Source: Romanomermis culicivorax (taxonomy: Eukaryota > Nematoda > Enoplea > Mermithida > Mermithidae). From it: DNA of 64,000 bases. The stretch covers positions 62,001-126,000 of the forward strand of contig CAWUHX010000419.1 in the NCBI GenBank assembly GCA_963922205.1, read 5' to 3'. Within the stretch, counting starts at the first letter, position 1; every line of letters starts with the position of its first letter. The notes under the pieces are model-generated. The model made no database searches and was not told where the DNA came from. It was given only the letters and a program-made list of their open reading frames with translations. The position numbers and the translations under genes are program-made. Below are positions 4,108 through 64,000 of this stretch, piece after piece.

Positions 4108-4117
4108 GATCCAACCA

Positions 4118-4538
4118 TACCTGTAAGACCTCCGACCAGTTGGGGGGGGGGGGGGGTAAATCCGAAATTTTGGGGGGGGGGTAGGAAAAAGTCGAAATTT
4201 TTCCCAAAAAAGGCCAAAAAAACATACACTTTTTTGAAAATTTTTTAATTTTTTCCAAACTGGGGGGGGGGTTGAGGGCCCTCCAACCATACCTGTACTT
4301 GGGGGGGTTGGGGGGGGGGGACCCCCCCCAACTCGGCCAACCCTATACCCAAAATCATTCCCCCCCCCCAACCCCCCCCCCCCCAGTTTGGAAAAAATTA
4401 AAAAAATTTTCAAAAAAGTGTATGTTTTTTGGCTTTTTTTTGGGAAAAATTTCGACTTTTTCCTACCCCCCCCCAACTGGTCGGAGGTCTTACAGGTATG
4501 CCCCCAACCCCCCCCCCCCCCCCCCAAATACAGGTACG
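4118..4538. mobile_element. Head-to-head pair of G-run elements inserted in the LINE
   Basis: A 421-bp insert flanked by a perfect 10-bp direct repeat GATCCAACCA (4108-4117 and 4539-4548). It consists of two copies of the 2532-2727 family in opposite orientation: the left arm begins ...CTGTAAGACCTCCGACC and the right arm ends ...GGTCGGAGGTCTTACAG. Together they form a long imperfect palindrome with poly-G and poly-C runs. Insert plus duplication is 431 bp, which accounts exactly for the frame difference between the two halves of the LINE protein. Confidence 0.65.
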
Positions 4539-7227: not shown

Positions 7228-7231
7228 GTAG

Positions 7232-8120
7232 TGTAACGTACCTGCTAAAAGCAGTACTGTAAACATGTAGCATACTGTATGTAATAGACATTTATTAGAT
7301 ATTATTTTATTTTCACATTTTATCGTCTCAAGGATGTCTGGAATTCACACCCAAACATTCCCACAAAATTACGTGAAGTACTTTATTTTGATCCGTTCAC
7401 ACCCCGGTAGCCCAATTAAGATGCCCTAATTAATTTGCACAAACGGCAGCTGTTCCCCTAGAACCTACACTAAACTACACATTCCACAGCTACCGTAATC
7501 CCCCGTAAAAATCGTAAACAACACCTGCACACAGTAAAATGCGTAGAAGCCCCGCCGTACAGTAGTCTCAAGTGTAACAGTAGCGGCGGCCCCACAAAAC
7601 GTGTGTATACAGAGAAACCGATACAGGAAGCATGCACAGAAGCACAAAGGCGTGGCCAAGCCCACCGTAGAAAGCAAGCAAAGCACAGAAAGCATACGGT
7701 ACCAGAAAAGCGTTAGAGAGGCGTAACTAAGGAAGCATGAAAAGCGTAGCCGGAAACGACGATTGGCGGAAGAAGATGGACAGAAACTCGACCTCCCGCC
7801 GCGTCCAGGGAGTGGCCAAAATCGCCGTATAAAAGAAGAAGCAAAGCGTGATTTTCATCTTTATTCTGATTCTTATTCTTGTGTTTTTTCCGCGCTCGCC
7901 CCGTCTTATACATCTGCAAGCGGCCGACTATTCGAAAGCACTTAAACCGAGGCCCCCATCCGTTTTTATTCGAAGCGCGTTTATTGTCGACGTTCAAGCG
8001 ACCGTCGAATATCCGTTGTTGTGTTGTAACCGTTCGCCCGCATTCCCCGTCCCGTATTTGTCCCGGCCGTATCGACCGATTGGTCCAAGTAAAGTACCTC
8101 ACAGAAATCTGGTCGTTACA
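7232..8120 (+). repeat. Element 1 5' LTR
   Basis: 889 bp, TG...CA ends, TATA box at 7828. It matches the 3' LTR at 15625-16513 nearly base for base. The first ~600 bp are also shared with element 2's LTR, but the part after the TATA box (about 7856-7980) is largely unrelated to element 2. Confidence 0.95.
7828..7835 (+). promoter_or_regulatory. TATA box in element 1 LTR
   Basis: TATAAAAG within the LTR, so transcription would start roughly 25-30 bp downstream. The same box is in the 3' LTR (about 16221) and in element 2's LTRs (32133 and about 40516). The GTG that opens the frame at 7848 would lie upstream of the transcript start and cannot be the initiator. Confidence 0.65.
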
Positions 8121-8125
8121 TATTT

Positions 8126-8137
8126 TGGTGACCGTAC
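8126..8137 (+). promoter_or_regulatory. Putative primer-binding site
   Basis: TGGTGACCGTAC starts five bases after the 5' LTR end. TGG pairs with the CCA of a tRNA 3' end, and TGGTGACC resembles sites used with tRNA-Trp-like primers. Only the first eight bases fit that tRNA, so the primer identity is open. Element 2 has the same site at 32440. Confidence 0.5.
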
Positions 8138-8363
8138 CGTTACGTTAACCAGTGGAACTCCCTGCCCCCAATTAGGTGTACTCTTATCCGGGCAATTAGA
8201 AGCATTAGATAATACAGTAGTAATCATTTCCTACAGTAAGACGGTATTCGTATTAAGCAAACTGGAAACCCCCTCTAACGAAGCATTAAGCGATACATTT
8301 AAACGAATACAGCGTGAAGCAAAAATTGAAGCATTTAAGCAGAAATCCCATCGTAAACCAAGA

Positions 8364-11300
8364 ATGACCCACCAAACGCAAGATCATTTAGGAGAAATCG
8401 TTAGAGAACAGATAAACGATTTATTTTCAGAACATTTTCGTACCCTACGCACACAATTGAATCAGAATACAGTAAACCCTACCCTAATAGACGATCTAAG
8501 AACAGCAAACATTCGTAATAACATGGCAAACAATTTCTACGCGAAACCTACAGTATTCACGGGCGGCGTGACCCAACATTTTGGTGAATGGAACAAAAGA
8601 TTAGAACAATTCATGGCACTCCAAGGCATGAAAGATACAGACGTACAGTTAAAGCTGGCATGTTTAGAAATTCATTTAGGAGGAGCCGCGTTAGCAAAAT
8701 TCAAAAGTTTAGCAAATTCTGAAAACCCTCCCCACACATACGAGCAGTATAAAGTCGCATTACAGGCATTTTTCCCAAACAATAGAGATAATGAGCTACA
8801 TCAACAATTCTTACGCGAAAGAAAACAAAAGCGATCAGAAACAGTGACTGAATTTTTATTTGATCTAGAACATCTCGCAACCCTCGCCTACCCTAACTTT
8901 AACACAGATGCACGAGAAATGATCATAAAACCCCTCTTTGTAGAAGGCATGCAAAACGAAATCAGGGAAGCAATTAAGTATAGAAGGTTCGCAACTCTAA
9001 AAGAAATGTCAGACGAAGCAGCTTACATTGAACAGCAAATTCTTAGAAATGAGTTAAAATCTAACGTCCTTCCCTTCATACCCCCAAAACCCGAACCCAT
9101 CTTTTCCCTAACCAAAAATACAGACCAACAGGATCTTTTGCATCAGTTAGAACAACAAGTAAAAGATTTACAGTTGCAGATCAAACAAAAACCTCAACCC
9201 CCACAACAGAATAGCTACAACAATTTCAGTAACAATACTTTCAGTAGGAATAATGCTTACAGGAACAATACCACCCCCAGGCAACCCACATGCTTCCAGT
9301 GTGGACAAATCGGACACATAGCTCGTAATTGTAAATCAGTAGGCACCCGAAAATCATGTGAAATCTGTTTCCGTAATAATCACAGTACACGTGATTGTAA
9401 AAGCCCATGCATCCACTGCTCCCAAACAGGACATAGATCAGATAACTGCCCTTCAAAACCCTACTCCAATTTTCAATGTTTTATATGCAAGCAGAGAGGT
9501 CATACAAGCAGGTATTGTCCAAATCAGCAGAGTCGTAATATTCAAAATTGCATTGAGTACAAGCAACCCCAACCCCTCATGGACATTGACGACCCCGCAT
9601 TTTACTCAAAATTACCCGCCATAACTAACGGCCCTCAGACTACTTTAGGAACTATCATGCCCAACACCCACCGCCGTAGTGACGAATACGTCCTTGATCT
9701 GGACGTACCCGATTGGTGCGCCATGTCACCACCCCCCACGCCTGAAGCCGAAAAAATCGAAAAATCGCCACCCACCATCCCCGTAGGCTACAAGATCCCC
9801 CGAAAGCAAGACACAACGCCGCCCACCGCCCCCGAGACCCCGTCGAAAACAGGCCGCAACTTGTTATCCCTTCTCCATGGCCTCACCCCCGAACCCTACC
9901 AATTTCGCCCCCGCCAAACATTGCTACCGACCCCCGCAAGTAAGCAAGTCCAAACCCCATCCCATAACTCAAATTCCAAACTTTTACAGAATGTTCAGAT
10001 TTCAAACCGGCAACCCCCCCAGCTCAAAATCGCAAAACGACAACACCAAAAGCCCCAACACCAAACCGGCCACAACGAAAACATACAGTGCCCCGCCACC
10101 TCCACTAAAACATTCTATTGGCCGATGTTTTGTATTTTTCTTTGTATAATAATCCCCACATCGTGTAGTGCCCAATTTCAGATGTGTGGAACTTCATTGA
10201 GCGGTCACTCAGTCAGCATACCAAAACTTGTATCATGCATGCCCCCTTCCATAGTAGACAAACCCGTACAAACATTCGGAAAAATCTATATCCCCTCCAC
10301 TAAGCCCCACATTACAGACACATACAAATGCAGTGTTCGCAAACGCAAAATTTGTACTAATACAGGATTTTTTGGATCAAAAGGTATTGTCTTCGACCAA
10401 ACCGAAATGCAAAATCTAACCCCACATGTTTGTAAGGCAGTCGTTATAGACAAAGAACACAACGGTCAAAAATTATACGAAACCCAACCAGGATTTTGGT
10501 CAACAAATAACTCCCTAAGCGTAGAATACACATGGTGTTGTACAGACCATTGTACCTCAGTCACTAACGTCATCATAGAAATAGGACAAATAGCATCTTG
10601 GAATGGAAAATCTATGACAGGTACATTAGGCGACCTAGGGTCATGCAAACCGACATCAGGTCATTGTGTCACAGCCGACGGATCCATTATCTGGAATGAA
10701 ACAGCATTTGAAAACTTATGCCCCTTCGAATACAAAAATACACATCCCATAAAACTCACGCCAACCCACATGATAATAGAAGAGCTACAAGGTGCATTCT
10801 CGGTTAAAAACACACTCTTTTCAAACCCCAATTGCCCAGAAATCCAAGACAGCATTCTAACCGAACAAGGCATTATTGTACAATTAGACAAAAGCACACC
10901 ACATCGTAACGCATTTCTAACCCCAAAAACCAACGAAACTCATACTACACTATACGATTTTGATGATTTTGAACCCATCAATGCAAAACTAAACTATCTA
11001 GCAGACAAAATACAGGAATTCGAAATTCAAAATTTCAAAAATGTATGGAATGAATTATGCAGACAGGCACAGCGTCACCTTGATCTCGTATGGCAAATTT
11101 TACGTCTTGATGCAACCCTTGGAGCACGTGCATTCCTACAGAGAACCGACATCATAGCAGAATTTACAGGAGAAGCCCTCACAGTCTGGCCCTGTAAACA
11201 AGTAAATGCATCTAAAATCTTTTACAACCACAAAATCAACCAAACATGTTACAAACTTTTGCCCATTCTCGTAGGAACTGAACTCATGTTTTCAAATCCA

Positions 11301-14300
11301 GGTGGCAACGATTTGACCCCTTTCTCACAAACCGTTGACTGCCATCACATGCATGTAGCCCTTTACAAACAGAATAATACATGGGTAAGTGAAACAGGAT
11401 CCCCGCATGTCACAAATTTACCTTTAGAAATCGTCTGGAACCAAAATTTCTCCCTTTTTCATTTTAATACACCCCCCATTTTTCATGATCAACTTGCAAC
11501 TATTTCAACCAACTTACTATTTTTGAAACAATACATTTACAAAACTCACACACTCGAAAACGTTGTCCAAAAACTCGTCAATTACACCGCCCAAATGTCT
11601 CTCAATTCCGATACAGTTTACAACATGATCTCAGGCACTGGTCAAGCACTCGGAAATACACTCTCTGGCGCCGGTCAAGGCATAGAACATGTAATAACCG
11701 GTACCACCCAAAGTCTCACGGACGGATTAAACAATTTACTCAAAGGACCCCTGCAAATCATTATCAATCTCGCTGTTATTACTGTAGTTATTGCAGGCGT
11801 CTTTTATTCGTTTCTCGTTCTTCGAAAATATTTCCCCTCTCCAAAGCGTCATGCCACAAACGAACATGCATACGAAATACCATCAAACAACAGACATTTA
11901 CATGAGACCATTCCCCCATCATTCGGCCATGCTCTCTTAGAATTAGCTAATCGTCGTGGGGCACAAACACAACAGAAATACGTCCTTGTCGATATTGATA
12001 CCCCCCGAACTCCTGCAATCGAACTCATTAATCAAATTCAGCAATCCGCATCAAATAAGCCACCCCAAAATGTACCTGAGAAACATACCCCTCATATTCC
12101 AATCACACTTAACGGCAAATTAATGACAAAAGGCATGATTGACACTGGTGCAGTTTACTCACTCATTGATTCCCGAATCGCTCAAATCCTACAGTTAGAC
12201 ATGAAACCCCCGCTAGTCCAAGCAAAAGCAGCTAATAATCTTCCGATTCACTTTGTAGGAACCACTTTTGTCACAGTGACAGCTCAAACAATCCAGGAAA
12301 CAATCATGGTCCATGTCCAAAAAGATTGCACAGCAGACATCCTTCTAGGCAAAAACTTTCTCAGTCGATTTTCGGAATACACTATCAACAATCAAAAATC
12401 ACAGGTCAAATTTGGCAATGTTATACTACCTTGTGATGGCCTAGAATATAGCCCTCTTTCAACTCGTGGTGGAACTTATTTGGATGAGAAATTAGAATTA
12501 CCACCCCGTACAGTAACTGAATTTACTGTCCCCTTGCCCAAATCGTACTTACAGGTCAAACAGCTTGAATTCACCCCAAAACCCAAACAGAATCCCAAAG
12601 TCCATTTCGCAGCTTGTATCTCTGAAAACCAAAACAGTCGCATACGCATATCGGTCCTAAACACACAAGAAACAGCTCAAATTCTTTATCCTGGAACATG
12701 CATTGGTACAGTCTCCTGTTACATCCCGAAACAAAATACTCCCGCTAACGTAACCCCTTCCACGCAAAACCAGCCCAACCGTTTTGATACATTCACATGG
12801 TTAAAAGAAAACGTCAATTTAACCTCCAGTGACCTCACAGAAGCAGAAAAAACGCAACTCCTACGCGCCCTATCGAAGTATCCCACATTATATGCTAAAT
12901 CCAAAATGGATGTAGGCAGAACCACCCTCGTTTCACATACAATTGACACCAATGGCTCCCAACCTGTACGTAGACAACTTTATCGGACTTCCCCAAAGGA
13001 AAAGCAAATCATACAAGCAGAAGTTGAGCAACTCGCAAAAGCAGGTGTCATAAGCCAAAGCAATTCCCCATGGTGTACCAACACAGTTTTAGTTCCCAAA
13101 AAAGATGGAGGCCATCGTTTATGCATTGATTTTAGAGGCCTCAACAAAGTCACCAAAAAAGATACCTACCCCTTACCCCGTATAGACGAAATTCTAGACA
13201 CCCTCCGAGGAATGAAATATTTCACCTCCCCTGACCACTCCAACGCATATTATTCCATTCCCATAGCACAGGCAGACAGAGAAAAAACAGCCTTTAATTG
13301 CTCAGCCGGCCAGTATCAATTCAATTACCTCCCCTTTGGACTCACCAATGCCCCAGCCACATTCCAAAGGTTAATGGATGTTATTCTTTCGGGTCTGCAA
13401 TGGAACACATGCCTTGTGTATCTCGACGATGTTTTGGTATTCGCAGACTCCCATGCCCAAATGCTGGAACATTTAGACACTATTCTTGCCCGATTCTCAC
13501 AAGCAGGCCTTAAGCTAAACATACAAAAATGCAAATTCTGCCAGCCCCAAGTCCAATACTTAGGCCACGTCATTTCTCAGCAAGGCATTTCACCAGATCC
13601 CCATAAGGTACAGGCCATTTATGACATACCCACACCCAAAAGCTCAAAAGAAGTTAAGTCATTCCTTGGCCTACCCTCGTATTATCGCAGATTCATCCCA
13701 AATTGCTCCCAAGTTTCTAGTCCACTCACATCGCTACTCAAAAAGAACTCAGAATTTTCCTGGGGCCCTGAACAGCAAAATGCATTCACTAAGCTAAAAG
13801 AATTACTCATTCATGCCCCAATACTGCAGCACCCCGATTTCACAAAACCGTTCATTCTGCAAACCGACGCCTCAAAACTCGGAATCGGCGCCATTCTCAG
13901 TCAGCTAGATAGTAAAGGTCAGGATCGCCCCATTGCTTTTGGGAGCCGCACATTGAAACCCGCAGAACGCAACTACCCGATCACTGAGTTGGAAACCCTT
14001 GCAGTAGTCGAATTTGTCAAGTATTTCCGCCCTTATCTTTTCCAGCAACATGTTATTGTACACACTGACCACACAGCAGTTCAGGCAGTCTTACAGAAGG
14101 AAAACCCGTCCCCTCGCATTGCCCGTTGGGGATTAGCCCTCTCTGGTATTCAACTCGACATTCGACCTAAGAAAGGCACTGCTAACCGCAACGCAGATGC
14201 AGTTTCTCGATTCCCCTCGCAAACAGCAAAGCAATCCTTTGATATTGAGCAATTAGAAACCCGCCCCGAAATATCAACTATCAATTCAGTTTTGGAAGCC

Positions 14301-15593
14301 GAAGCAACTGAACAAGAAGAGCAACAGAAAAACTTTGCCGAACTCCAACGCACTGATCCAACTGTCAAAAGTATTTTAGCAAAAATCGCCCAAAAACACC
14401 CCCTTACCCTTCTCAAATTCGCCGTACATCAAAACATTCTCTTCCGTATAGTCGACAAACAGACAAAACTATACATTCCCAAGTCGCAAGTCCAGCATCT
14501 CATCGCCTCACATCATGACAGCAAATTCACAGGTCATTTTGCGGCCCGGAAAACTTTACACTTGCTCAGACAGAAATATTTTTGGCCCCAAATGAGCCAT
14601 GATATCAAACGTTACTGCAAAACTTGCCACCCATGCCAGACACAGAAAGCTCTTAGGCACAAAGTCCATGCAAACTTGGTACCAATTCAGCCAACCGGCC
14701 CATTTGATCGAGTTGGTGTTGATTGCATGGGACCGTTACCCCTCACTGAAGACGGCAACCGATTCATTGTCGTTTTCATCGATTATTTCACAAAGTATGT
14801 CGAGGCATTCCCGACCCCTGACATCACCGCAGCCACTATTGCCAAGTTATTCGTAACCAAAATTGTTTGTCGTCATGGGTCCCCAAAAATCATCCATTGT
14901 GATCGTGGCACCGATTTCGTATCCGATCTTTTCTCACGGATCACCAGTTTATGCAATACTCAGAAAATTCACACCACCCCATATCATCCCATTGCCAATG
15001 GAGAAGTTGAGCGTTGTAACCAAACCTTAGCCACCCGTATCCGCATGTACATCAATTCAAATCACACTGATTGGGATACTTATCTCCCGTATGCCGTTTT
15101 TTCGATCAACATCCATAAAAATGATAGCACATCATATCCCCCATTTGAATTACTCCACGGTAGGCAAGCTAATCTGCCGTCAGACACAGCTTTAAATTTT
15201 TTCCCCACGTCCTACATGGTTGATTTAGATGATTACGCCCTTCGTGTAAAATCGCATTTTACAGAAGCACTCTCAACCGTGCAGAAAAGTTTGCAAAAAG
15301 CCCAAGCCCACTACACCCGTCAGTATAACAAGCATGCTCAGAACATACATTACAAAGTAGGTGATCTTATACTTTATAAAAATCATTCGTGTAAACAAGG
15401 GTTGACTCCCAAATTCCTCCCTCGCCAAAACGGGCCCTATACAGTTACAAATTTCATGTACCCCAACGTTACACTCAAACACCCCCATAAGAATATTACA
15501 TTCACGGTGCATGTAAACGAGACAACCCCTTTCTACCCTCGGAAAGCAACTATCGCATCTACCCCCACCCCTCCTCAACCTCGAAAGCCTTGA
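8364..15593 (+). CDS. Gag-Env-Pro-Pol polyprotein of element 1
   Basis: One uninterrupted frame. It is open from 7848 in the LTR, but ATG 8364 is the first in-frame ATG, so I choose it. Order of domains by position: capsid-like Gag (about 8.5-9.1 kb); four CX2CX4HX4C zinc knuckles (9291-9518); a Pro-rich linker; an internal signal peptide starting at M 10125; a Cys-rich glycoprotein ectodomain; a membrane anchor (about 11754-11822); protease with DTG at 12141; RT with YLDD at 13419; RNase H from Asp 13866; integrase with an HHCC finger (about 14.51-14.64 kb) and a D,D,35,E core at 14721, 14901 and 15009; then a GPY motif. All key catalytic residues are present, so this copy looks competent. 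No stop or frameshift separates Gag from Pol, so processing must be entirely proteolytic. Confidence 0.92.
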   Translation: MTHQTQDHLGEIVREQINDLFSEHFRTLRTQLNQNTVNPTLIDDLRTANIRNNMANNFYAKPTVFTGGVTQHFGEWNKRLEQFMALQGMKDTDVQLKLACLEIHLGGAALAKFKSLANSENPPHTYEQYKVALQAFFPNNRDNELHQQFLRERKQKRSETVTEFLFDLEHLATLAYPNFNTDAREMIIKPLFVEGMQNEIREAIKYRRFATLKEMSDEAAYIEQQILRNELKSNVLPFIPPKPEPIFSLTKNTDQQDLLHQLEQQVKDLQLQIKQKPQPPQQNSYNNFSNNTFSRNNAYRNNTTPRQPTCFQCGQIGHIARNCKSVGTRKSCEICFRNNHSTRDCKSPCIHCSQTGHRSDNCPSKPYSNFQCFICKQRGHTSRYCPNQQSRNIQNCIEYKQPQPLMDIDDPAFYSKLPAITNGPQTTLGTIMPNTHRRSDEYVLDLDVPDWCAMSPPPTPEAEKIEKSPPTIPVGYKIPRKQDTTPPTAPETPSKTGRNLLSLLHGLTPEPYQFRPRQTLLPTPASKQVQTPSHNSNSKLLQNVQISNRQPPQLKIAKRQHQKPQHQTGHNENIQCPATSTKTFYWPMFCIFLCIIIPTSCSAQFQMCGTSLSGHSVSIPKLVSCMPPSIVDKPVQTFGKIYIPSTKPHITDTYKCSVRKRKICTNTGFFGSKGIVFDQTEMQNLTPHVCKAVVIDKEHNGQKLYETQPGFWSTNNSLSVEYTWCCTDHCTSVTNVIIEIGQIASWNGKSMTGTLGDLGSCKPTSGHCVTADGSIIWNETAFENLCPFEYKNTHPIKLTPTHMIIEELQGAFSVKNTLFSNPNCPEIQDSILTEQGIIVQLDKSTPHRNAFLTPKTNETHTTLYDFDDFEPINAKLNYLADKIQEFEIQNFKNVWNELCRQAQRHLDLVWQILRLDATLGARAFLQRTDIIAEFTGEALTVWPCKQVNASKIFYNHKINQTCYKLLPILVGTELMFSNPGGNDLTPFSQTVDCHHMHVALYKQNNTWVSETGSPHVTNLPLEIVWNQNFSLFHFNTPPIFHDQLATISTNLLFLKQYIYKTHTLENVVQKLVNYTAQMSLNSDTVYNMISGTGQALGNTLSGAGQGIEHVITGTTQSLTDGLNNLLKGPLQIIINLAVITVVIAGVFYSFLVLRKYFPSPKRHATNEHAYEIPSNNRHLHETIPPSFGHALLELANRRGAQTQQKYVLVDIDTPRTPAIELINQIQQSASNKPPQNVPEKHTPHIPITLNGKLMTKGMIDTGAVYSLIDSRIAQILQLDMKPPLVQAKAANNLPIHFVGTTFVTVTAQTIQETIMVHVQKDCTADILLGKNFLSRFSEYTINNQKSQVKFGNVILPCDGLEYSPLSTRGGTYLDEKLELPPRTVTEFTVPLPKSYLQVKQLEFTPKPKQNPKVHFAACISENQNSRIRISVLNTQETAQILYPGTCIGTVSCYIPKQNTPANVTPSTQNQPNRFDTFTWLKENVNLTSSDLTEAEKTQLLRALSKYPTLYAKSKMDVGRTTLVSHTIDTNGSQPVRRQLYRTSPKEKQIIQAEVEQLAKAGVISQSNSPWCTNTVLVPKKDGGHRLCIDFRGLNKVTKKDTYPLPRIDEILDTLRGMKYFTSPDHSNAYYSIPIAQADREKTAFNCSAGQYQFNYLPFGLTNAPATFQRLMDVILSGLQWNTCLVYLDDVLVFADSHAQMLEHLDTILARFSQAGLKLNIQKCKFCQPQVQYLGHVISQQGISPDPHKVQAIYDIPTPKSSKEVKSFLGLPSYYRRFIPNCSQVSSPLTSLLKKNSEFSWGPEQQNAFTKLKELLIHAPILQHPDFTKPFILQTDASKLGIGAILSQLDSKGQDRPIAFGSRTLKPAERNYPITELETLAVVEFVKYFRPYLFQQHVIVHTDHTAVQAVLQKENPSPRIARWGLALSGIQLDIRPKKGTANRNADAVSRFPSQTAKQSFDIEQLETRPEISTINSVLEAEATEQEEQQKNFAELQRTDPTVKSILAKIAQKHPLTLLKFAVHQNILFRIVDKQTKLYIPKSQVQHLIASHHDSKFTGHFAARKTLHLLRQKYFWPQMSHDIKRYCKTCHPCQTQKALRHKVHANLVPIQPTGPFDRVGVDCMGPLPLTEDGNRFIVVFIDYFTKYVEAFPTPDITAATIAKLFVTKIVCRHGSPKIIHCDRGTDFVSDLFSRITSLCNTQKIHTTPYHPIANGEVERCNQTLATRIRMYINSNHTDWDTYLPYAVFSINIHKNDSTSYPPFELLHGRQANLPSDTALNFFPTSYMVDLDDYALRVKSHFTEALSTVQKSLQKAQAHYTRQYNKHAQNIHYKVGDLILYKNHSCKQGLTPKFLPRQNGPYTVTNFMYPNVTLKHPHKNITFTVHVNETTPFYPRKATIASTPTPPQPRKP
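10125..11875 (+). other. Env-like glycoprotein module inside the polyprotein
   Basis: A membrane glycoprotein embedded between Gag and protease. It opens with a hydrophobic signal-peptide-like stretch (MFCIFLCIIIPTSCSA) with an A-Q cleavage-like end. About 530 residues rich in Cys and N-x-S/T sites follow, then a Gly/Ser-rich pre-anchor stretch (GTGQALGNTLSGAGQG), a ~23-residue hydrophobic anchor and a basic cytoplasmic start. The segment around 11055-11280 has a Cys, a long helix (QRHLDLVWQIL), a TLGARAFLQR turn and paired Cys, an arrangement I associate with class III fusion proteins of the gB/chuvirus type. That family call is inference; that it is a type I membrane glycoprotein is well supported. 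Element 2 keeps the whole module, and element 4 keeps its C-terminal end. Confidence 0.7.
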
Positions 15594-15611
15594 ACGAGGA
15601 CATTCAACTCC

Positions 15612-15624
15612 GGAAGGAGGGAAA
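15612..15624 (+). promoter_or_regulatory. Polypurine tract of element 1
   Basis: GGAAGGAGGGAAA lies directly against the 3' LTR start at 15625, the expected place for plus-strand priming. The identical tract precedes element 2's 3' LTR, and AAGGAGGGGAA precedes element 4's. Confidence 0.85.
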
Positions 15625-16513
15625 TGTAACGTACCTGCTAAAAGCAGTACTGTAAACATGTAGCATACTGTATGTAATAGACATTTATTAGATATTATTT
15701 TATTTTCACATTTTATCGTCTCAAGGATGTCTGGAATTCACACCCAAACATTCCTACAAAATTACGTGAAGTACTTTATTTTGATCCGTTCACACCCCGG
15801 TAGCCCAATTAAGATGCCCTAATTAATTTGCACAAACGGCAGCTGTTCCCCTAGAACCTACACTAAACTACACATTCCACAGCTACCGTAATCCCCCGTA
15901 AAAATCGTAAACAACACCTGCACACAGTAAAATGCGTAGAAGCCCCGCCGTACAGTAGTCTCAAGTGTAACAGTAGCGGCGGCCCCACAAAACGTGTGTA
16001 TACAGAGAAACCGATACAGGAAGCATGCACAGAAGCACAAAGGCGTGGCCAAGCCCACCGTAGAAAGCAAGCAAAGCACAGAAAGCATACGGTACCAGAA
16101 AAGCGTTAGAGAGGCGTAACTAAGGAAGCATGAAAAGCGTAGCCGGAAACGACGATTGGCGGAAGAAGATGGACAGAAACTCGACCTCCCGCAGCGTCCA
16201 GGGAGTGGCCAAAATCGCCGTATAAAAGAAGAAGCAAAGCGTGATTTTCATCTTTATTCTGATTCTTATTCTTGTGTTTTTTCCGCGCTCGCCCCGTCTT
16301 ATACATTTGCAAGCGGCCGACTATTCGAAAGCACTTAAACCGAGGCCCCCATCCGTTTTTATTCGAAGCGCGTTTATTGTCGACGTTCAAGCGACCGTCG
16401 AATATCCGTTGTTGTGTTGTAACCATTCGCCCGCGTTCCCCGTCCCGTATTTGTCCCGGCCGTATCGACCGATTGGTCCAAGTAAAGTACCTCACAGAAA
16501 TCTGGTCGTTACA
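15625..16513 (+). repeat. Element 1 3' LTR
   Basis: 889 bp, same ends and TATA box as the 5' LTR. The GTAG duplication follows at 16514-16517. Confidence 0.95.
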
Positions 16514-17674
16514 GTAGCCTCACTAGAGATCAGGAATTCAATTCCGATAATCTTGAAATGATTGAAAGGCGTGATCATCAAGGAGTCGATATCATGAAAA
16601 AAATTTATTAAATAGTAAACGAGCCTTCCATAAGTTTGGCCATGACTTCACCGCATCGATCATTTCAAAAACAATAGAGCATAATTTGTATCACTTTTTA
16701 ATTTCCAATCATTTAAAAAATAACATGCCATAGCTAATAGCACTTTTTACTACAGCTTATCATATTTGTTATACTGTGAACGGATAAAATTTAAATACGA
16801 GTAAAACAAAAACGAACGATACCTCATCAAAATTTGCGGAAAAAGGAAATTCGTTCGAAAATATTACTATCCGAGACAAAAAGAGCATCGGAGTGTGATA
16901 TACGGCCATCGTGTCCACTTTATTGTCTGTAGTATCTCGCCTCATTTTGAATAATTTTCAACTTTCACTTTCTCTACACATTTCATCATGTCAGTTATCA
17001 AGGAGATACTGGGAAAAAGATGAAAAAATTCATAAAAGGGACTAAGATGATCATACTCGTATTAGCTAAAAAGACGACAAATAACACGACAAAAAACAAA
17101 TAAAACGTCGAATCAAGAAAAAACCTACACCCCTTGCGAGTCCAACGCACAAATAACTCCTTCGAACTCCAAAAAGAAGCAATTTAGCGTTTGTCCATTG
17201 TTCGAGATATGTTTGAGGTTTTGTTTGAACTCGAAGAAAAACAAGCGTTGTTTGTAATACGGACTGCACACTCTTCCTTATAACGTAAAATTTTCAATCC
17301 GGAAAAATTTAATTTAAAACAAAATGCGATTTTTAAGGATTAAAATTAAATCGAAAATTTAATTACTCGTACCGTCGACAAGTATACATATTTTCGGTAA
17401 AAGCATGCACATGCTGGGTTTCGGCTGTTGGTCCGTATTTCGAAATAAAAATTGGCTCCTAAAATTCGAACGGAATAATCAGTTGTTATAGAAATATAAG
17501 ACATACGGTACACTAGAGGAAAATATACGCCAATTTTCTTTACGATGCAAAATTTGTACAAAACCAACGTTACATCGGAGAAATTTCTCTCGTTGGCGAA
17601 GAAAACCGCATATTTTTGAACTGAATATTACATCAAAAGGACACATGCGTGTCGTTAGGGGAAGGGTGCGGAGT

Positions 17675-31537: not shown

Positions 31538-32434
31538 TGTAACGTACCTGCTAAAGCAGTACTGTAAATATGTAGCATACTGTATGTGATAGACATTTAT
31601 TAGATATTATTTTATTTTCACATTTTATCGTCTCAAGGATGTCTGGGATTCACACCCAAACATTCCTACAAAATTACGTGAAGTACTTTATTTTGATCCG
31701 TTCACACCCCGGTAGCCCAATTAAGATGCCCTAATTAATTTGCACAAACGGCAGCTGTTCCCCTAGAACCTACACTAAACTACACATTCCACAGCTACTG
31801 TAATCCCCCGTAAAAATCGTAAACAACACCTGCACACAGTAAAATACATAGAAGCCCCGCCAGACAGTAGTCTCAAGTGTAACGGTAGCGGCGGCCCCAC
31901 AAAACATGTGTATACAGAGAAACCGATACAGGAAGCATGCACAGAAGCACAAAGGTGTGGCCAAGCCCACCGTAGAAAGCAAGTGAAGCACAGAAAGCAT
32001 ACGGTACCAGGAAAGCATTAGAGAGGCGTAATTAAGAAAGCATAAAAAGCGTAGCAGGAAACGACGATTGGCGGAAGAAGATGGACAGAAGCTCGACCTC
32101 CCGCAATGCCCAGGGAGTGGCCAAAATCGCCGTATAAAAGAAGAAGCAAAGCGTGATTTAGTTAGTTGTTAGATTGTTGTAATCGTTTTATTTTTGATCC
32201 GCGGCCGTTCCTTTATTTGCAAGCAACCGTCTTCGAAAGCAATTAAACCGTGTCGTGTATTTTTATTTGCAAGCAAACGCGCCGTCGGAATTGTGTATTG
32301 TCGACGTTCAAGCGACCGTCGATCACCCGTTGTTTTATTGTAACCGTACGCCTGCGCCCCGTCCCGTTATTTGTCCCCGCCGTATCGACCGATTGGTTAA
32401 AAGTAAAGTACCTCACACAAATCTGGTCGTTACA
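31538..32434 (+). repeat. Element 2 5' LTR
   Basis: 897 bp; TATAAAAG at 32133-32140. Shares U3 with element 1 but has its own sequence from about 32160 to 32285. Confidence 0.95.
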
Positions 32435-32677
32435 TATTTTGGTGACCGTACCGTTACGTTAACCACTGGAACTCCCTGCCCCCAATTAGGTGTACTCTTA
32501 TCCGGGCACTTAGAAGCATTAGATAATACAGTAGTAATCATTTCCTACAGTAAGACAGTATTCGTAGAAAGCAAACTGGAAATCCCCTCCAACGAAGCAT
32601 TAAGCGATACATTTAAACGAATACAGCGTGAAGCAAAAATTGAAGCATTTAAGCAGAAATCCCATCGTAAACCAAGA

Positions 32678-35600
32678 ATGACCCACCAAACGCAAGATCA
32701 TTTAGGAGAAATCATTAGAGAACAGATAAATGATTTATTTTCAGAACATTTTCATACCCTACGCACACAATTGAATCAGAATACAGTAAACCCTACCATA
32801 ATAGACGATCTAAGAACAGCAAACATTCGTAATAACATAGCAAATAATTTTTACGCAAAACCTACAGTATTCACGGGTGGCGTGACCCAACATTTTGGTG
32901 AATGGAACAAAAGATTAGAACAATTCATGGCACTCCAAGGCATGAAAGATACAGATGTACAGTTAAAGTTAGCATGTTTAGAAATTCATTTAGGAGGAGC
33001 CGCGTTAGCAAAATTCAAAAGTTTAGCAAATTCCGAAAACCCTCCCCACACATACGAGCAGTATAAAGTCGCATTACAGGCATTTTTCCCAAACAATAGA
33101 GATAATGAGCTACATCAACAATTCTCACGCGAAAGAAAACAAAAGCGTTCAGAAACAGTAACAGAATTCTTATTTGATCTAGAACATCTCGCAACCCTGG
33201 CCTACCCTAACTTTAACACAGACGCACGAGAAATGATCATAAAACCCCTCTTTGTAGAAGGCATGCAAAACGAAATCAGGGAAGCAATTAACTATAGAAG
33301 GTTCGCGACTCTAAAAGAAATGTCAGACGAAGCAGCTTACATTGAACAGCAAATTCTTAGAAATGAGTTAAAATCTAACGTCCTTCCCTTCATACCCCCA
33401 AAACCCGAACCCATCTTTTCCCTAACCAAAAATACAGATCAACAGGACCTTTTGCATCAGTTAGAACAACAGGTAAAAGATTTACAGTTGCAGATCAAAC
33501 AAAAACCTCAACCCCCACAACAGAGTAGCTACAACAATTTCAGTAACAATACTTTCAGCAGGAATAATGCTTACAGGAACAATACCACCCCTAGGCAGCC
33601 CACATGCTTCCAGTGTGGACAAATTGGACACGTAGCTCGTAATTGAAAATCATGTGAAATCTGTTTCCATAATAATCACAGTACACGTGATTGTAAAAGC
33701 CGATGCATCCACTGCTCCCAAACAGGACATAGATCAGATAACTGCCTTTCAAAACCCTACTCCAATTTTCAATGTTTTCTATGCAAGCAGAGAGGTCATA
33801 CAAGCAGATATTATCCAAATCAGCAAAGTCGTAATATTCAAAACTGCATCGAGTACAGGCAACCCCAACCCCTCATGGACATTGACGACCCCGCATTTTA
33901 CTCAAAATTACCCGCCATAACTAACAGCCCTCAGACTACTTTAGGAACTATCCTGCCCAACACCCACCGCCGTAGTGACGAATACGTCCTCGACCTGGAC
34001 GTACCCGATTGGTGCGCCATGTCACCACCCCCCACGCCTGAAGCTGCAAAAATCGAAAAATCGCCGCCCACCATCCCCGTAGGCTACAAGATCCCCCGAA
34101 AGCAAGACACTACGCCCCCCACCGCCCCCGAAACCCCGTCGAAAACAGGCCGCAACTTGTTATCCCTTCTACATGGCCTGACCCCCGAACCCTACCAATT
34201 CCGCCCCCGCTAAACACTTCTACGGACACCCATAAGTAAGCAAGTCCAAACCCCATCCCATAACTCAACTTCTAAAGTTTTACAGAATGTTCAGATTGCA
34301 AACCGGCCACCCCCCCAGCTCAAAATCGCAAAACGACAACACCAAAAGCCCCAACACCAAACCGGCCACAACGAAAACATACAGTGCCCTGCCGCCTCCA
34401 CTAAAACATTCTCTTGGCCGATGTTTTGTATTTTTCTTTGTATAATAATCCCCACATCGTGTAGTGCCCAATTTCAGATGTGTGGAACTTCATTGAGCGG
34501 TCACTCAGTCAGCATACCGAAACTTGTATCATGCATGCCCCCTTCTACAATAGACAAACCCATACAGACATTCGGAAAAATCTATATCCCCTCCACTAAG
34601 CCCCACATTACAGACGCATACAAATGCAGTGTTCGCAAACACAAAATTTGTACTAATACAGGATTTTTTGGATCAAAAGGTATTGTCTTTGACCATACCG
34701 GAATGCAAAATCTAACCCCACATGTTTGTAAGGCAATCGTTATAGACAAAGAACACAACGGTCAAAAATTATACGAAACCCAACCAGGATTTTGGTCAAC
34801 AAATAACTCCCTAAGCGTAGAATACACATGGTGTTGTACAGACCATTGTACCTCAGTCACTAACGTCATCATAGAAATAGGACAAATAGCATCTTGGAAT
34901 GGAAAATCTATGACAGGTACATTAGGCGACCTAGGGTCATGCAAACCGACATCAGGTCATTGTGTCACAGCCGACGGATCTATTATCTGGAATGAAACAG
35001 CATTTGAAAACTTATGCCCCTTCGAATACAAAAACACACATCCCATTAAACTCACACAAACCCACATGATAATAGAAGAACTACAAGGTGCATTCTCGGT
35101 TAAAAGTACAGTTTTTTCGAACCCCAATTGCCCAGAAATCCAAGACAGCATTCTAACCGAACAAGGCATTATCATACAATTAGACAAAAGCACCCCACAT
35201 CGTAACACATTTTTAACCCCAAAAACCAACGAAACTCATACTACACTATACGATTTTGATGATTTTGAACCCATCAATGCAAAACTAAACTATCTAGCAG
35301 ACAAAATACAGGAATTCGAAATTCAAAATTTCAAAAATGTATGGAGTGAATTATGCAGACAGGCACAGCGTCACCTTGATCTCGTATGGCAAATTTTACG
35401 TCTTGATGCAACCCTTGGAGCGCGTGCATTCCTACAGAGAACCGACATCATAGCAGAATTCACAGGAGAAGCTCTCACCGTCTGGCCCTGCAAGCAGGTA
35501 AACGCATCCAAAGTCTTTTACAACCACAAAATCAACCAAACATGCTACAAACTTTTGCCCATTCTCGTAGGAACCGAACTCATGTTTTCAAATCCAGGAG

Positions 35601-38600
35601 GCAACGATTTGACCCCTTTTTCACAAACCGTTGACTGCCATCACATGCATGTAGCCCTTTACAAACAGAATAATACATGGGTCAGTGAAACAGGATCCCC
35701 GCATGTCACAAATTTACCTTTAGAAATCGTTTGGAACCCAAATTTCTCCCTCTTCCATTTCAATACACCCACCATTTTTCATGATCAACTTGCAACTATT
35801 TCAACCAACTTAGTCTTTTTGAAACAATACATTTACAAAACTCACACACTCGAAAACGTTGTCCAAAAACTCATCAATTACATCGCCCAAATGTCTCTCA
35901 ATTCCGATACAGTTTACAACATGATCTCAGGCACTGGCCAAGCACTCGGAAATACCCTCTCTGGTGCCGGTCAAGGCATAGAACATGTAATTACCAGTAC
36001 CACCCAAAGTCTCACAGACCGATTAAACAATTTACTCAAAGGACCCCTGCAAATCATTATCAATCTAGCCGTTATCACTGTAGTTATTGCAGGCGTCGTT
36101 TATTCTTTTCTCATTCTTCGAAAATATTTCCCCTCCCCAAAGCATCAGGTCACACATGAACATGCATACAAAATACCATCGAACAACAGACATTTACATG
36201 AGACCATTCCCCCATCATTCGGCCATGCTCTCTTAGAATTAGCTAATCCTCGTGGGGCACAAACGCAGCAGAAATACGTCCTTGTCGATATTGATACCCC
36301 CCGAACTCCTGCAATCGAACTCATTAATCAAATTCACCAATCTGCACCAAATAAGCCACCCCAGAATGTACCTGAAAAACATACCCCTCACATCCCGATT
36401 ACACTTAACGGCAAATTAATCACAAAAGGCATGATTGACACTGGTGCAGTCTACTCACTCATTGATTCCCGAGTCGCACAACTTTTACAATTAGACATGA
36501 AACCCCCACTAGTCCAAGCAAAAGCAGCAAATAATCTCCCGATTCACTTTGTAGGAACCACTTTTGTCACAGTGACAGCCCAAACAATCCAGGAAACAAT
36601 CATGGTCCATGTCCAAAAAGATTGCACAGCAGACATCTTTCTAGGCAAAAACTTTCTTAGTCGATTTTCGGAATATACTATCAACAATCAGAAATCTCAG
36701 GTCAAATTTGGCAATGTCATACTACCTTGTGATGGCCTAGAATATAGTCCTCTTTCAACTCGTGGTGGAACTTATTTAGACGAGAAATTAGAATTACCAC
36801 CCCGAACAGTAACTGAATTCACTGTCCCCTTGCCCAAATCGTACCTACAAGTTAAACAGCTCAAATTTACTCTGAAACCCAAGCAGAATCCCAAAGTCCA
36901 TTTCGCAGCTTGTATCTCGGAAAATCAAAACAAACGCATACGCATATCCGCCCTGAACACACAAGAAACAGCCCAAATTCTTTATCCTGGAACATGCATT
37001 GGTACAGTCTCATGTTACATCCCAAAACAAAATGCTCCCGCTAATCTAACCCCTTCAACACAAAACCAGCCCAACCGTTTTAATACATTCACATGGTTAA
37101 AAGAAAATGTTAATTTAGCCTCCAGTGACCTCACAGAAACCGAGAAAATGCAACTCCTACGCGCCCTATCGAAGTATCCCACATTATATGCTCAATCGAA
37201 AATGGATGTAAGTAGAACCACCCTCGTTTCACATACAATTGACACCAATGGCTCCCAACCCATACCTAGACAACTTTATCGGACTTCCCCAAAAGAAAAG
37301 CAAATCATACAAGCAGAAGTTGAGCAACTCGCAGCAGCAGGTGTCATAAGCCAAAGCAATTCTCCATGGTGTACCAATAGAGTTTTAGTCCCCAAAAAAG
37401 ACGGAGGCCATCGTTTATGCATTGATTTTAGAGGCCTCAATAAAGTCACCAAAAAAGATACCTACCCCTTACCCCGTATAGACGAAATTCTAGACACCCT
37501 CCGTGGAATGAAATATTTCACCTCCGTTGACCAATCCAATGCATATTATTCCATTCCCACAGCACAAGCAGACAGAGAAAAAACTGCATTCAATTGCTCA
37601 GCCGGCCAGTATCAATTCAATTACCTCCCCTTTGGACTCACCAATGCCCCAGCCACATTCCAAAGGTTAATGGATGTTATTCTTTCGGGTCTACAATGGA
37701 ACACATGCCTTGTGTATCTCGACGATGTTTTGGTATTCGCTGACTCCCATGCCCAAATGCTGGAATGTTTAGACACTATTCTTGCCTGATTCTCACAAGC
37801 AGGCCTTAAGCTAAACATACAAAAATGCAAATTCTGCCAGCCCCAAGTCCAATACTTAGGCCATGTCATTTCTCAGCAAGGCATTTCCCCAGATCCCCAT
37901 AAGGTACAGGCCATCTATGACATACCCACACCCAAAAGCTCAAAAGAAGTTAAGTCATTCCTTGGCCTAACCTCGTATTATCGCAGATTCATCCCAAATT
38001 GCTCCCAAGTTTCTAGCCCACTCACATCGCTCCTCAAAAAGAACTCCGAATTTTCCTGGGGCCCCGAACAGCAAAATGCATTCACCAAGCTAAAAGAATT
38101 ACTCATTCATGCCCCAATACTCCAGCATCCCGATTTCACAAAACCGCTTATCCTGCAAACTGACGCCTCCAAACTCGGAATCGGCGCCATTCTCAGTCAA
38201 CTCGATAGTAAAGGTCAGGATCGCCCCATTGCTTTTGGGAGCCGCACACTAAAACCCGCAGAACGCAACTACCCGATCACTGAGTTGGAAACCCTTGCAG
38301 TAGTCGAATTTGTCAAGTATTTCCGCCCCTATCTTTTCCAGCAACATGTTATTGTACACACTGACCACACAGCAGTTCAGGCAGTCTTACAAAAGGAAAA
38401 CCCGTCCCCTCGCATTGCCCGTTGGGGATTAGCTCTCTCTGGTATCCAGTTAGACATACTACCCAAGAAAGGCACTGCTAAAGGCAACGCAGATGCAGTT
38501 TCTCGATTCCCCTCACAGACAGCAAAACAATCCTTTGACATCGAGCAATTAGGAACCCGCCCCGAAATATCCACCATCAATTCTGTTTATGAGGCCGAAG

Positions 38601-39889
38601 CAACTGAACAAGAAGAGCAACAGAAAAACTTTGCCGAACTCCAACGCACTGACCCAACTGTCAAAAGTATTTTAGCAAAAATCGTCCAAAAACACCCCCT
38701 TACTCTGATCAAATTCGCAGTGCATCAAAACATTCTCTTCCGTATAGTCGACAAACAGGCAAAACTATACATTCCCAAGTCGCAAGTCCAGCATCTCATC
38801 GCCTCACATCATGACAGCAAGTTCACAGGGCATTTTGCTGCCCGGAAAACTTTACACTTGCTTCAACAAAAATATTTTTGGCCCCAAATGAGCCGTGATA
38901 TCAAACGTTATTGCAAAACCTGCCACCCATGCCAGACACAGAAAGCCCTCCGACGCAAAATACATGCAAATTTGGTACCAATTCAGCCGACTGGTCCATT
39001 TGATCAAGTTGGTGTCGATTGCATGGGACCGTTACCCCTCACTGAAGATGGCAACTGATTCATTGTCGTTTTCATTGATTATTTCACAAAGTATGTAGAG
39101 GCATTCCCGACCCCTGACATCACTGCAGCCACTATTGCCAAGCTATTCGTAACCAAAATTGTTTGCCTTCATGGGTCTCCAAAAATCATCCATTGTGATC
39201 GTGGCTCCGATTTTGTATCCCATCTCTTCTCACGGATCACCAGTTTATGCAATACTCAGAAAATTCATACCACCCCATATCATCCCATTGCCAATGGGGA
39301 AGTTGAGCGTTGCAACCAAACTCTAGCCACCCGTATCCGCATGTACATCAATTCAAATCACACTGACTGGGATACTTATCTGCCCTATGCCGTTTTTTCG
39401 ATCAACATCCATAAAAATGATAGCACATCATATCCCCCATTTGAATTACTCCACGGTAGACAAGCTAATCTGCGGTCAGATGCTGCTTTAAACTTCTTCC
39501 CCACATCCTACATGGTTGATTTAGACGATTACGCCCTTCGTGTAAAATCACATTTTACAGAAGCACTCTCAACTGTGCAGAAAAGTTTGCAAAAAGCTCA
39601 AGCCCACTATACGGGTCAGTATAACAAGCATGCTAAGAACATACACTACAAGGCAGGTGATCTTATTCTCTACAAAAATCATTCGTGTAAACAAGGGTTG
39701 ACTCCCAAATTCCTCCCTCGCCAAAACGGACCCTATACAGTTACAAATTTCATGTACCCCAACGTTACACTCAAACACCCCCATAAGAATATTACATTCA
39801 CGGTGCATGTAAACGAGACAACCCCTTTCTACCCTCGGAAAGCAACTATCGCATCTACCCCCACCCCTCCTCAACCTCGAAAGCCTTGA
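32678..39889 (+). pseudogene. Gag-Env-Pro-Pol polyprotein of element 2, four in-frame stops
   Basis: Same domain order as the element 1 polyprotein. ATG 32678 corresponds to ATG 8364. Breaks: TGA 33644-33646, created at an 18-bp in-frame deletion inside the first zinc knuckle; TAA 34211-34213 (CAA in element 1); TGA 37787-37789 (CGA in element 1), just after the RT YLDD region; TGA 39056-39058 (CGA in element 1), at the start of the integrase core. No frameshift occurs over 7.2 kb. The last zinc knuckle has also lost a Cys (RYYPN). The Env module from ATG 34421 to the protease and into RT (to 37789) is an uninterrupted 1,122 codons. As it stands the copy cannot make a full polyprotein without repeated readthrough. 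Confidence 0.9.
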
Positions 39890-39907
39890 ACGAGGACATT
39901 CAACTCT

Positions 39908-39920
39908 GGAAGGAGGGAAA
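39908..39920 (+). promoter_or_regulatory. Polypurine tract of element 2
   Basis: GGAAGGAGGGAAA, identical to element 1 and abutting the 3' LTR. Confidence 0.85.
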
Positions 39921-40817
39921 TGTAACGTACCTGCTAAAGCAGTACTGTAAATATGTAGCATACTGTATGTGATAGACATTTATTAGATAATTTTTTATTT
40001 TCACATTTTATCGTCTCAAGGATGTCTGGGATTCACACCCAAACATTCCTACAAAATTACGTGAAGTACTTTATTTTGATCCGTTCACACCCCGGTAGCC
40101 CAATTAAGATGCCCTAATTAATTTGCACAAACGGCAGCTGTTCCCCTAGAACCTACACTAAACTACACATTCCACAGCTACTGTAATCCCCCGTAAAAAT
40201 CGTAAACAACACCTGCACACAGTAAAATACATAGAAGCCCCGCCAGACAGTAGTCTCAAGTGTAACGGTAGCGGCGGCCCCACAAAACATGTGTATACAG
40301 AGAAACCGATACAGGAAGCATGCACAGAAGCACAAAGGTGCGGCCAAGCCCACCGTAGAAAGCAAGTGAAGCACAGAAAGCATACGGTACCAGGAAAGCA
40401 TTAGAGAGGCGTAATTAAGAAAGCATAAAAAGCGTAGCAGGAAACGACGATTGGCGGAAGAAGATGGACAGAAGCTCGACCTCCCGCAATGCCCAGGGAG
40501 TGGCCAAAATCGCCGTATAAAAGAAGAAGCAAAGCGTGATTTAGTTAGTTGTTAGATTGTTGTAATCGTTTTATTTTTGATCCGCGGCCGTTCCTTTATT
40601 TGCAAGCAACCGTCTTCGAAAGCAATTAAACCGTGTCGTGTATTTTTATTTGCAAGCAAACGCACCGTCCGAATTGTGTATTGTCGATGTTCAAGCGACC
40701 GTCGATCACCCGTTGTTTTATTGTAACCGTACGCCTGCGCCCCGTCCCGTTATTTGTCCCCGCCGTATCGACCGATTGGTTAAAAGTAAAGTACCTCACA
40801 CAAATCTGGTCGTTACA
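39921..40817 (+). repeat. Element 2 3' LTR
   Basis: 897 bp, paired with 31538-32434; followed by the CTTT duplication. Confidence 0.95.
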
Positions 40818-42020: not shown

Positions 42021-42022
42021 CA

Positions 42023-47170: not shown

Positions 47171-47268
47171 AGTGGTGGCTTCTGACTCTCAAAGTAACGG
47201 AAAATCAGAGGCAAACTCGAGGAGTCAAAAAACCTATTGGTTTTTATAGAGAACTGGGAGGTTACAAA

Positions 47269-49722: not shown

Positions 49723-49725
49723 AAT

Positions 49726-54970: not shown

Positions 54971-55009
54971 ATCTCTCCTGGATTTTTAGACCACAACATC
55001 CGTCGGGCA

Positions 55010-62659: not shown

Positions 62660-64000
62660 GATGCGGGGATGGAACCGGACAGTATCATTAATGTGCAATT
62701 TGTAAACTTTCTGTGTATTGGGTTGCTAAATTTCGACATTTGGATATGCAACTTTGACAATTTTGTATGGTCCGTGCTGCTATGAGACAAGCTTATCAGC
62801 CAACCATTTCTTGAAATCTTGTTTTTCAATTATGTTTTTGGTTTTTGCTTCTTCAAGTTGTATGCTGTGAGTCTTTTCTGTTTTTGAAACAAAATTTTTT
62901 ATGCTGCCCACACAAGTATTTTGAAAAAGCTTTATCTTGTCCGTTAGGGGATTCATAACCAAAATTCGAATTCTGCCCTCAATATTTGGCGAAACTGAAG
63001 CTGCAAAACAGACTCCTGCTTTTTGAACTAGGGTGTCACTGGGTTCAAACTGAACCACAGGCACATCTCTATACATGTCCGAAATGGCAACGGACAATTG
63101 GGTAACCGAATGGGGCGGCAAAATGAGATTTTGATCCAAATGAATACCACCATGTCTTCATAAGGGATGATACTGTAGGCCAGTGCATGGGATGATCGTG
63201 TTTCCAAGTCGCACAAAACTTTTTTCATTGAATATGGACCATTCTCTAAACCGAAACAAGAAGCTTGAATCCAAAAGTAGGTCAGCAGGACAATTTTCTT
63301 GTATGTACGCCAACAGGGTTTGACTTTCTGTGCCTGCTTGCATAGTGATGAAAGTGGAACTGACAAGTTCCACACCTAAATTATTGGCTGATATGGGCAC
63401 AACAGTTGTTGGGTTAATGCCAATATCTTCAATCTTATCTGTGATTTTCTTATCAATTATGGTGTAAGTAGCGCCACAATCAACCATGGCATTAGCTAGA
63501 ACCCACTTATTTACAATTATGTTTATGTGGGGGGTTCTTTGATCATGTAGTTTCATGCTGTTTATATATTCCAACTTCGGGGCTGAAGGAGCTTGGTGAT
63601 CTGGTACTACAATATATCTATGGCTAGTATGGGAACTTTGCATATTTGCCAGTTCTAAGAGTGCTTGACCCAAGCTGGGCAGTAGGGGTTGTGTTTGTGA
63701 TCAATTTTGAGGTCTTGTTGGTAGCTCATACGTGATGTTTCTCATTTGTTTCGTAAAGTTTAAGCATCCCTTTAACCAAAAGCACACATAGAGGGTTCCA
63801 ACTATAGTTGCAACTATGACCACCAAATTAATCAACATTTGAAGGGGTCCTTTGAGCAAATTGTTTAAACCCCGTGTCATACCTTGTTGGGTACCAACAA
63901 TTACGTGTTCTAGGGCTTGACCGGCCCCTGAAAGGGTGTGACCAAGAGCTTGGCTGCTCCCTGAAAGAACTTCATACATAGAGCTGGAGTGAAGTGACAT
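62660..64000 (-). pseudogene. Env C-terminus - protease - (deletion) - integrase C-terminus of element 4
   Basis: Reading from the window edge on the minus strand: the Env pre-anchor (SSQALGHTLSGAGQA) and membrane anchor, a short tail, then the GQALLELAN spacer, protease with VDCGATY where elements 1 and 2 have DTG, and the segment before RT (WLADKLVS). Directly after that comes the integrase tail HGPYKIVKVAYPNVEI and an HINDTVRFHPR end. About 2.6 kb found in element 1 (roughly 12.82-15.42 kb) is missing at the junction near 62.78 kb. In-frame stops lie at 63701-63703, 63158-63160 and at the junction. The residual similarity shows that Env next to protease is an old, stable arrangement in this lineage. 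Confidence 0.8.

Follow-up and report, generated by a model that had tools for sequence, protein, structure and literature searches.

A Ty3/gypsy element of the nematode Romanomermis culicivorax with a predicted class III fusion glycoprotein between Gag and Pol in one open frame

Must a retroelement that carries an envelope protein (Env) keep it at the end of its coding region? In the Env-carrying retroelements and retroviruses known to us, env is placed after pol. A different arrangement is found in a 64,000-nucleotide stretch of the genome of the mermithid nematode Romanomermis culicivorax (contig CAWUHX010000419.1, positions 62,001 to 126,000; hereafter the window, with positions counted from its first letter). 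Here, an element at 7232-16513, element 1 of the window, encodes Gag, Env and Pol in that order and in a single frame. An earlier note, made from the letters alone, had claimed one uninterrupted Gag-Env-Pol frame from the ATG at 8364 to 15593 with intact catalytic motifs. The frame is borne out by the order of Pfam domains (Retrotrans_gag, zinc knuckles, PF24664, aspartyl protease, reverse transcriptase (RT), RNase H and H2C2/rve integrase), and the DTG, YLDD and GPY motifs are in place.

Architecture of the element and identity of its envelope

The features of the element are as follows:

7228..7231, no strand: left target site duplication, GTAG, read from sequence
7232..8120, + strand: 5' long terminal repeat (LTR), 889 bp, TG..CA ends, 99.4% identical to the 3' LTR (5 mismatches)
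8126..8138, + strand: putative primer binding site, beginning TGG, 5 bases past the LTR (sequence)
8364..15593, + strand: single open frame of 2409 amino acids from the ATG at 8364, Gag-Env-protease-RT-RNase H-integrase
8652..9023, + strand: Gag capsid region (Pfam Retrotrans_gag above its cut-off, Ty3_capsid and PNMA below theirs)
9291..9518, + strand: four CCHC zinc knuckles (Pfam and sequence)
9564..10112, + strand: in-frame Gag-Env linker, its end without a start codon common to the subfamilies described below
10113..10172, + strand: internal Env signal sequence (hydropathy and alignment; presumed cleavage after CSA)
10173..11756, + strand: Env ectodomain, predicted class III fusion glycoprotein fold, 9 N-glycosylation sequons (profile, model and sequence)
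10932..11468, + strand: PF24664 Monjiviricetes_fusion core (E=1e-18, 67.2 bits, cut-off 27)
11757..11807, + strand: Env membrane anchor (hydropathy 2.56)
12096..12368, + strand: aspartyl protease, DTG at 12138 (Pfam and sequence)
13092..13574, + strand: RT, YLDD at 13419 (Pfam and sequence)
13761..14144, + strand: RNase H (Pfam)
14475..14990, + strand: integrase H2C2 and rve core, with GPY at 15432 (Pfam and sequence)
15612..15624, + strand: polypurine tract preceding the 3' LTR (sequence)
15625..16513, + strand: 3' LTR, 889 bp (comparison with the 5' LTR)
16514..16517, no strand: right target site duplication, GTAG, read from sequence

Several of these features are typical of Ty3/gypsy elements (Metaviridae): the order protease-RT-RNase H-integrase with the integrase last, TG..CA LTRs, a target site duplication within 4-6 bp, a polypurine tract, and the GPY/F motif of the integrase. 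The Pfam matches of pol, among them those to integrase and RNase H families, include no family specific to BEL/Pao. Judged by domain order and motifs, the element is an intact LTR element of Ty3/gypsy (Metaviridae) type, an assignment made alongside an RT tree that held no named reference clades. Its leader, 243 bases from the 5' LTR to the ATG at 8364, holds no other ATG. A pattern search of the genome returned no evident tRNA gene for the putative primer binding site.

What is the protein between Gag and protease? That it is a membrane protein, a point which the earlier note had left to structure prediction, was checked by profile and by fold, and both describe a membrane fusion protein. Besides the PF24664 match, the region contains 16 cysteines (10167-11756), and its structure model adopts a class III fold with a long central helix. 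The PDB fold matches listed for this model are herpesvirus glycoprotein B (gB), and the 50 rows listed by VIA-align comprise herpesvirus gB and one rhabdovirus G. Taken as a prediction from profile and model, Env is a class III fusion glycoprotein of Monjiviricetes (chuvirus/bornavirus) type. No relatives of it were found in the viral contigs, prokaryote genome contigs, phage records or PDB sequences searched. Along the whole frame, scanned in pieces by the Kyte-Doolittle method with a threshold of 17 residues at a mean of 1.7, only the Env signal and the Env anchor rise above the threshold. This two-segment profile fits the earlier argument that signal and anchor would leave both Gag and Pol in the cytosol.

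Conservation of the central envelope in the genome and beyond

Is the central Env a peculiarity of one copy? A search of the 359-Mb genome with PF24664 gave 68 scored places, all above the cut-off. The elements fall into seven subfamilies, named by Env identity to the window element: A (the window element itself), B (about 56%), C (about 43%), D (about 37%), F (43%), G (43%) and H (39%). The corresponding RT identities are 71% for B, 62% for C, 53% for D, 63% for F, 64% for G and 54% for H. Among twelve loci cut out from the search, protease follows Env in 11, with the start of RT in 9 of those 11 as well; in the twelfth, of subfamily D (L016), RT follows Env on the adjoining stretch. That Gag precedes Env is shown by alignment for A, B, C, D and G; in F it is indicated by a weak match to the knuckle region (E 0.005), and in H by a knuckle present in the open frame. 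Downstream, protease was found in A, B, C, F, G and H; for D a protease match was not obtained, while RT does follow Env. In sampled copies of A, B and C a single frame runs through Gag and Env and takes in at least protease and RT, and H holds Gag and Env in one frame; one C copy (L030) has its integrase in a different frame. No element with Env after pol was seen in the part of the genome matches that was inspected. In the one copy looked at of family E, another large Ty3/gypsy family with a frame of 2305 amino acids, the region upstream of protease shows neither PF24664 nor a hydrophobic segment, only a long Gag.

A programmed stop between Gag and Env was considered for subfamily D. The stop of copy C150 is unshared by C60, the sole other copy read there, and the frame changes of C60 and C129 are individual, so D gives no evidence of such a device.

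Subfamily A is the most thoroughly sampled. Its Gag linker occurs in at least 150 copies, and Env is stop-free and 97-100% identical in the 71 best-scoring copies. Frames of at least 2409 amino acids are present in 44 of these 71 Env-selected copies and in 68 of 112 selected by RT. In a cross-check, which took 52 of the 150 Gag rows and 50 of the 112 RT rows and thus gives lower bounds, at least 51 of the 71 Env places lie at constant spacing, or no more than 3 bases off, from the Gag linker, and at least 49 from RT. Among the few copies examined for loss of Env, those with a frame of 1902 amino acids, the sampled 500-base part of Env was present in 3 of 3. The recent activity that the earlier note had read from near-identical LTRs agrees with the LTR identity of 99.4% together with the many long open near copies.

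The arrangement also extends beyond this genome. The earlier note had raised the possibility of an Env block confined to one lineage; instead, sampled copies of seven subfamilies share the order with an outside protein, P0010 (2338 amino acids, on a 7.9-kb contig with the tag lgn). P0010 is a single frame with Gag at 49-259, CCHC at 245, Env at 521-1106, DTG at 1184, RT at 1428-1894 and integrase at 1945-2286, and is 44% identical to the window element in RT and 34% in Env. Another protein, P0006, is alike in Env (33% identity, 95% of the query covered) and unlike in layout: its Env comes after a match, below the family cut-off, to DUF5641, which we take to be the end of a BEL/Pao integrase, and thus seems to sit after pol, as expected of BEL/Pao. 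Two further matches, P0005 and P0009, are proteins of R. culicivorax.

In the RT tree, the nine Env-bearing rows of this genome are set off together by a branch (83/99, short of the starred level), with family E and element 3 of the window apart (100/100) and P0010 at an unresolved fork beside the Env-bearing rows; several outside rows are long-branched. The Env tree repeats the nesting (A,B), (F,(G,C)), (H,D) of the RT tree, with P0007 joining A, B, C, F and G and the remaining outside proteins joining D and H (95/97). Within each half of the tree, Env and RT appear to share a long common history. The Envs of this genome do not form one group, which counts against a single capture; there may have been more than one, or a later exchange.

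One chain or several messages

How could such an element be expressed? We propose, with a probability of roughly 0.6, that Gag, Env and Pol are translated as one membrane-threaded polyprotein from the full-length RNA. An ancestral Ty3/gypsy element would have gained a Monjiviricetes-type class III glycoprotein in frame between gag and pol. With the RNA translated straight through, Gag would be produced in the cytosol, the internal signal sequence would then dock the ribosome at the endoplasmic reticulum, and the Env ectodomain would pass into the lumen, where it would be glycosylated. Transfer would end at the anchor, leaving protease, RT, RNase H and integrase to be made in the cytosol. Release of Env from Gag would fall to signal peptidase, and cutting on the cytosolic side to the element's own protease. 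As long as the precursor stayed uncut, Gag and Pol would be tied to the patch of membrane that bears the spikes, so that a single particle could collect every component with neither frameshift nor splicing. Translation as one chain, the cuts, budding, spread between cells and infectivity, like an equal output of Gag, Env and Pol and the absence of splicing, are what we infer from the sequence.

The flavivirus polyprotein follows a comparable plan, with a cytosolic capsid, an internal signal, a luminal glycoprotein, an anchor, and cytosolic protease and polymerase. The likeness is one of layout only, flaviviruses being unrelated RNA viruses with a class II glycoprotein. On a wider scale, the elements might represent an old retrovirus-like lineage that makes its whole particle as one membrane-threaded polyprotein, convergent with the flavivirus layout, and spreads by a class III spike; to this proposal we give even odds.

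Translation as one chain is favoured, short of proof, because no start codon or splice acceptor before Env is common to the subfamilies. At the Env signal no methionine is shared by A, B, C, F, G and H: A has one inside the signal, H one before it. Nor do these six share an acceptor in the roughly 600 bases upstream of Env.

Several points weigh against this reading. The intactness of the A copies is overstated because the scored copies are the best matches, and stops occur in 8 of the 68 Env places of the PF24664 search and in 12 of 61 scored with P0006 as query. The low ratio of nonsynonymous to synonymous polymorphism (pN/pS) in Env, 0.085 beside 0.063 in the protease region and 0.244 in the Gag tail, was pooled over 29 copies compared with the window element, and choosing these copies by their likeness in Env lowers Env pN. 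Between elements 1 and 2 of the window, the corresponding divergence ratio (dN/dS) is 0.203 for the Gag tail and 0.085 for the protease region, and that of Env (0.176) exceeds RT (0.118) and integrase (0.064). The confidence of the Env structure model is middling (predicted local distance difference test 56.3, predicted template modelling score 0.31). In subfamily A a C-rich acceptor stands 102 bases ahead of Env, with a second just within Env, and weak acceptors lie near Env in C and H. The leader holds a GTAAG donor at 8236 and the Gag-Env linker another at 9940, and T-rich acceptors of the window element number 7 against 4.6 in shuffled sequence. P0011, with Env, a DSG motif and the start of RT, has its own methionine at the signal, so some relatives may make Env-Pol separately from Gag. 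In insects, the passages of PMC12992720 indicate, the start codon of Env can come by splicing, and a spliced Env mRNA is therefore compatible with the lack of a local methionine.

In a rival account, which we consider unlikely, splicing would place a start codon beside the Env signal and yield an mRNA for Env or Env-Pol; the full-length RNA would be the genome and the message for Gag, and the single frame a by-product. The leader donor, the surplus of T-rich acceptors and the methionine of P0011 all suit it, as does precedent: splicing is typical for Metaviridae Env in the passages of PMC12992720, and those of PMC10309623 describe a spliced protein from the stop-less gag-pol RNA of the nematode element Cer1. 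Yet no T-rich acceptor occurs from 8868 to 11423, the acceptors before Env are not shared, and GTRAG donors number only 4 against 9.9 in shuffled sequence. Moreover, splicing would not need a common frame for gag and env, yet the sampled A, B, C and H copies keep one.

Does Env serve infection at all? It could be kept for an intracellular role, as a membrane tether for assembly or vesicle transfer, and tethering does follow from the layout. A tether, however, needs only signal and anchor, and the whole ectodomain with its class III fold is kept at 37-56% identity and with low pN/pS among copies, so we consider this role comparably doubtful.

An in-frame intron is a still more distant prospect. 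Most mRNAs would then drop Env and yield Gag-Pol, with an unspliced minority yielding Gag-Env-Pol, which would account both for the frame kept on either side and for an excess of Gag-Pol over Env. The donor at 9940 does precede Env, but the earliest T-rich acceptor past Env, at 13131, is beyond the protease, and among the few A copies examined none was seen without Env, the three with shorter frames included. Finally, chance insertion or an assembly artefact is ruled out for practical purposes by seven subfamilies on many contigs and one separate outside contig.

Known systems and the surroundings of the element

Errantivirus Env is a class I protein of baculovirus F type, encoded downstream of pol. 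The window element, with PF24664 and a predicted class III fold and with env upstream of pol, differs from errantiviruses on both counts and from Retroviridae in the position of env. It resembles errantiviruses and insect endogenous retroviruses (gypsy, ZAM) as a Ty3/gypsy LTR element with a virus-captured Env; theirs follows pol and, in the passages of PMC12992720, is made from a spliced mRNA, whereas here it lies between gag and pol in one frame. With Anakin, described in passages of PMC7642597 as a mosquito BEL/Pao element with a chuvirus glycoprotein, it shares the capture of such a glycoprotein by an LTR element, Anakin being BEL/Pao and the window element Ty3/gypsy. In the same passages, which do not state Anakin's own order, the BEL/Pao envelopes known earlier come after the polyprotein, and the passages of PMC10084718 report no clear evidence of capture by Gypsy elements. 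Cer1 of C. elegans is alike as a nematode Ty3/gypsy element running from gag to pol without a stop (passages of PMC10309623).

An Env between gag and pol is undescribed in the available passages of PMC7642597, PMC10084718, PMC10309623, PMC5408684, PMC12992720, PMC13172572 and PMC12440569, and no such element appears in the titles and abstract openings among the matches listed for layout, Env type or host. Env-carrying Ty3/gypsy elements are already known; what appears to be new is the gene order, and the presence of this type of Env in Ty3/gypsy, with Chary and Hayashi 2025 (eLife 108449) judged via citing papers only. Captured Monjiviricetes-type glycoproteins would thereby extend from BEL/Pao to Ty3/gypsy and to a nematode element. 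Judging from a diverse clade with a central Env and from its numerous long open copies, a retroelement is apparently able to pass a spike through its own polyprotein, and joint packaging of Env, Gag and Pol without splicing or frameshift becomes testable.

Within the window, the earlier note had also seen Env in a second and a fourth element, and it is found in both:

31538..40817, + strand: second copy (element 2), subfamily A, LTRs 99.3% identical, target site duplication CTTT, same domain order, four in-frame stops
63221..64000, - strand: element cut by the window edge, with Env C-terminus, tail and protease, subfamily B-like by identity, no tree placement

Elements 1 and 2 are strand-biased: in 2-kb windows over 8001-16000 and 32001-40000, GC skew ranges from -0.15 to -0.31 and AT skew from +0.10 to +0.22, the sense strand being rich in C and A and poor in G. 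Imperfect repeats lie beside element 2 at 42008-42842 (self-comparison). Element 3 (46571-60319) gave no match to the Env of the window element; it has direct end repeats of 600 bp (98.3%), an RT of the kind of family E, protease and integrase, and extra open reading frames past the integrase (55010-58897), two of which were scanned, both without a Pfam match. At 2820-4184 an RT-like open reading frame (RVT_1 E=5e-37), unmatched by the RT of the window element, probably belongs to another retroelement class.

Elsewhere in the genome, frames of subfamily F reach about 3018 amino acids, and one F locus (L063, C410:170800-172022) has two consecutive DTG-type aspartyl protease motifs downstream of Env. 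At C122:529091-539356 and C180:404-17640, Env copies stand about 8.4 kb apart, like tandem arrays with common LTRs; C122 holds one frame of 3612 amino acids, and each of the three copies in C180 carries a TGA.
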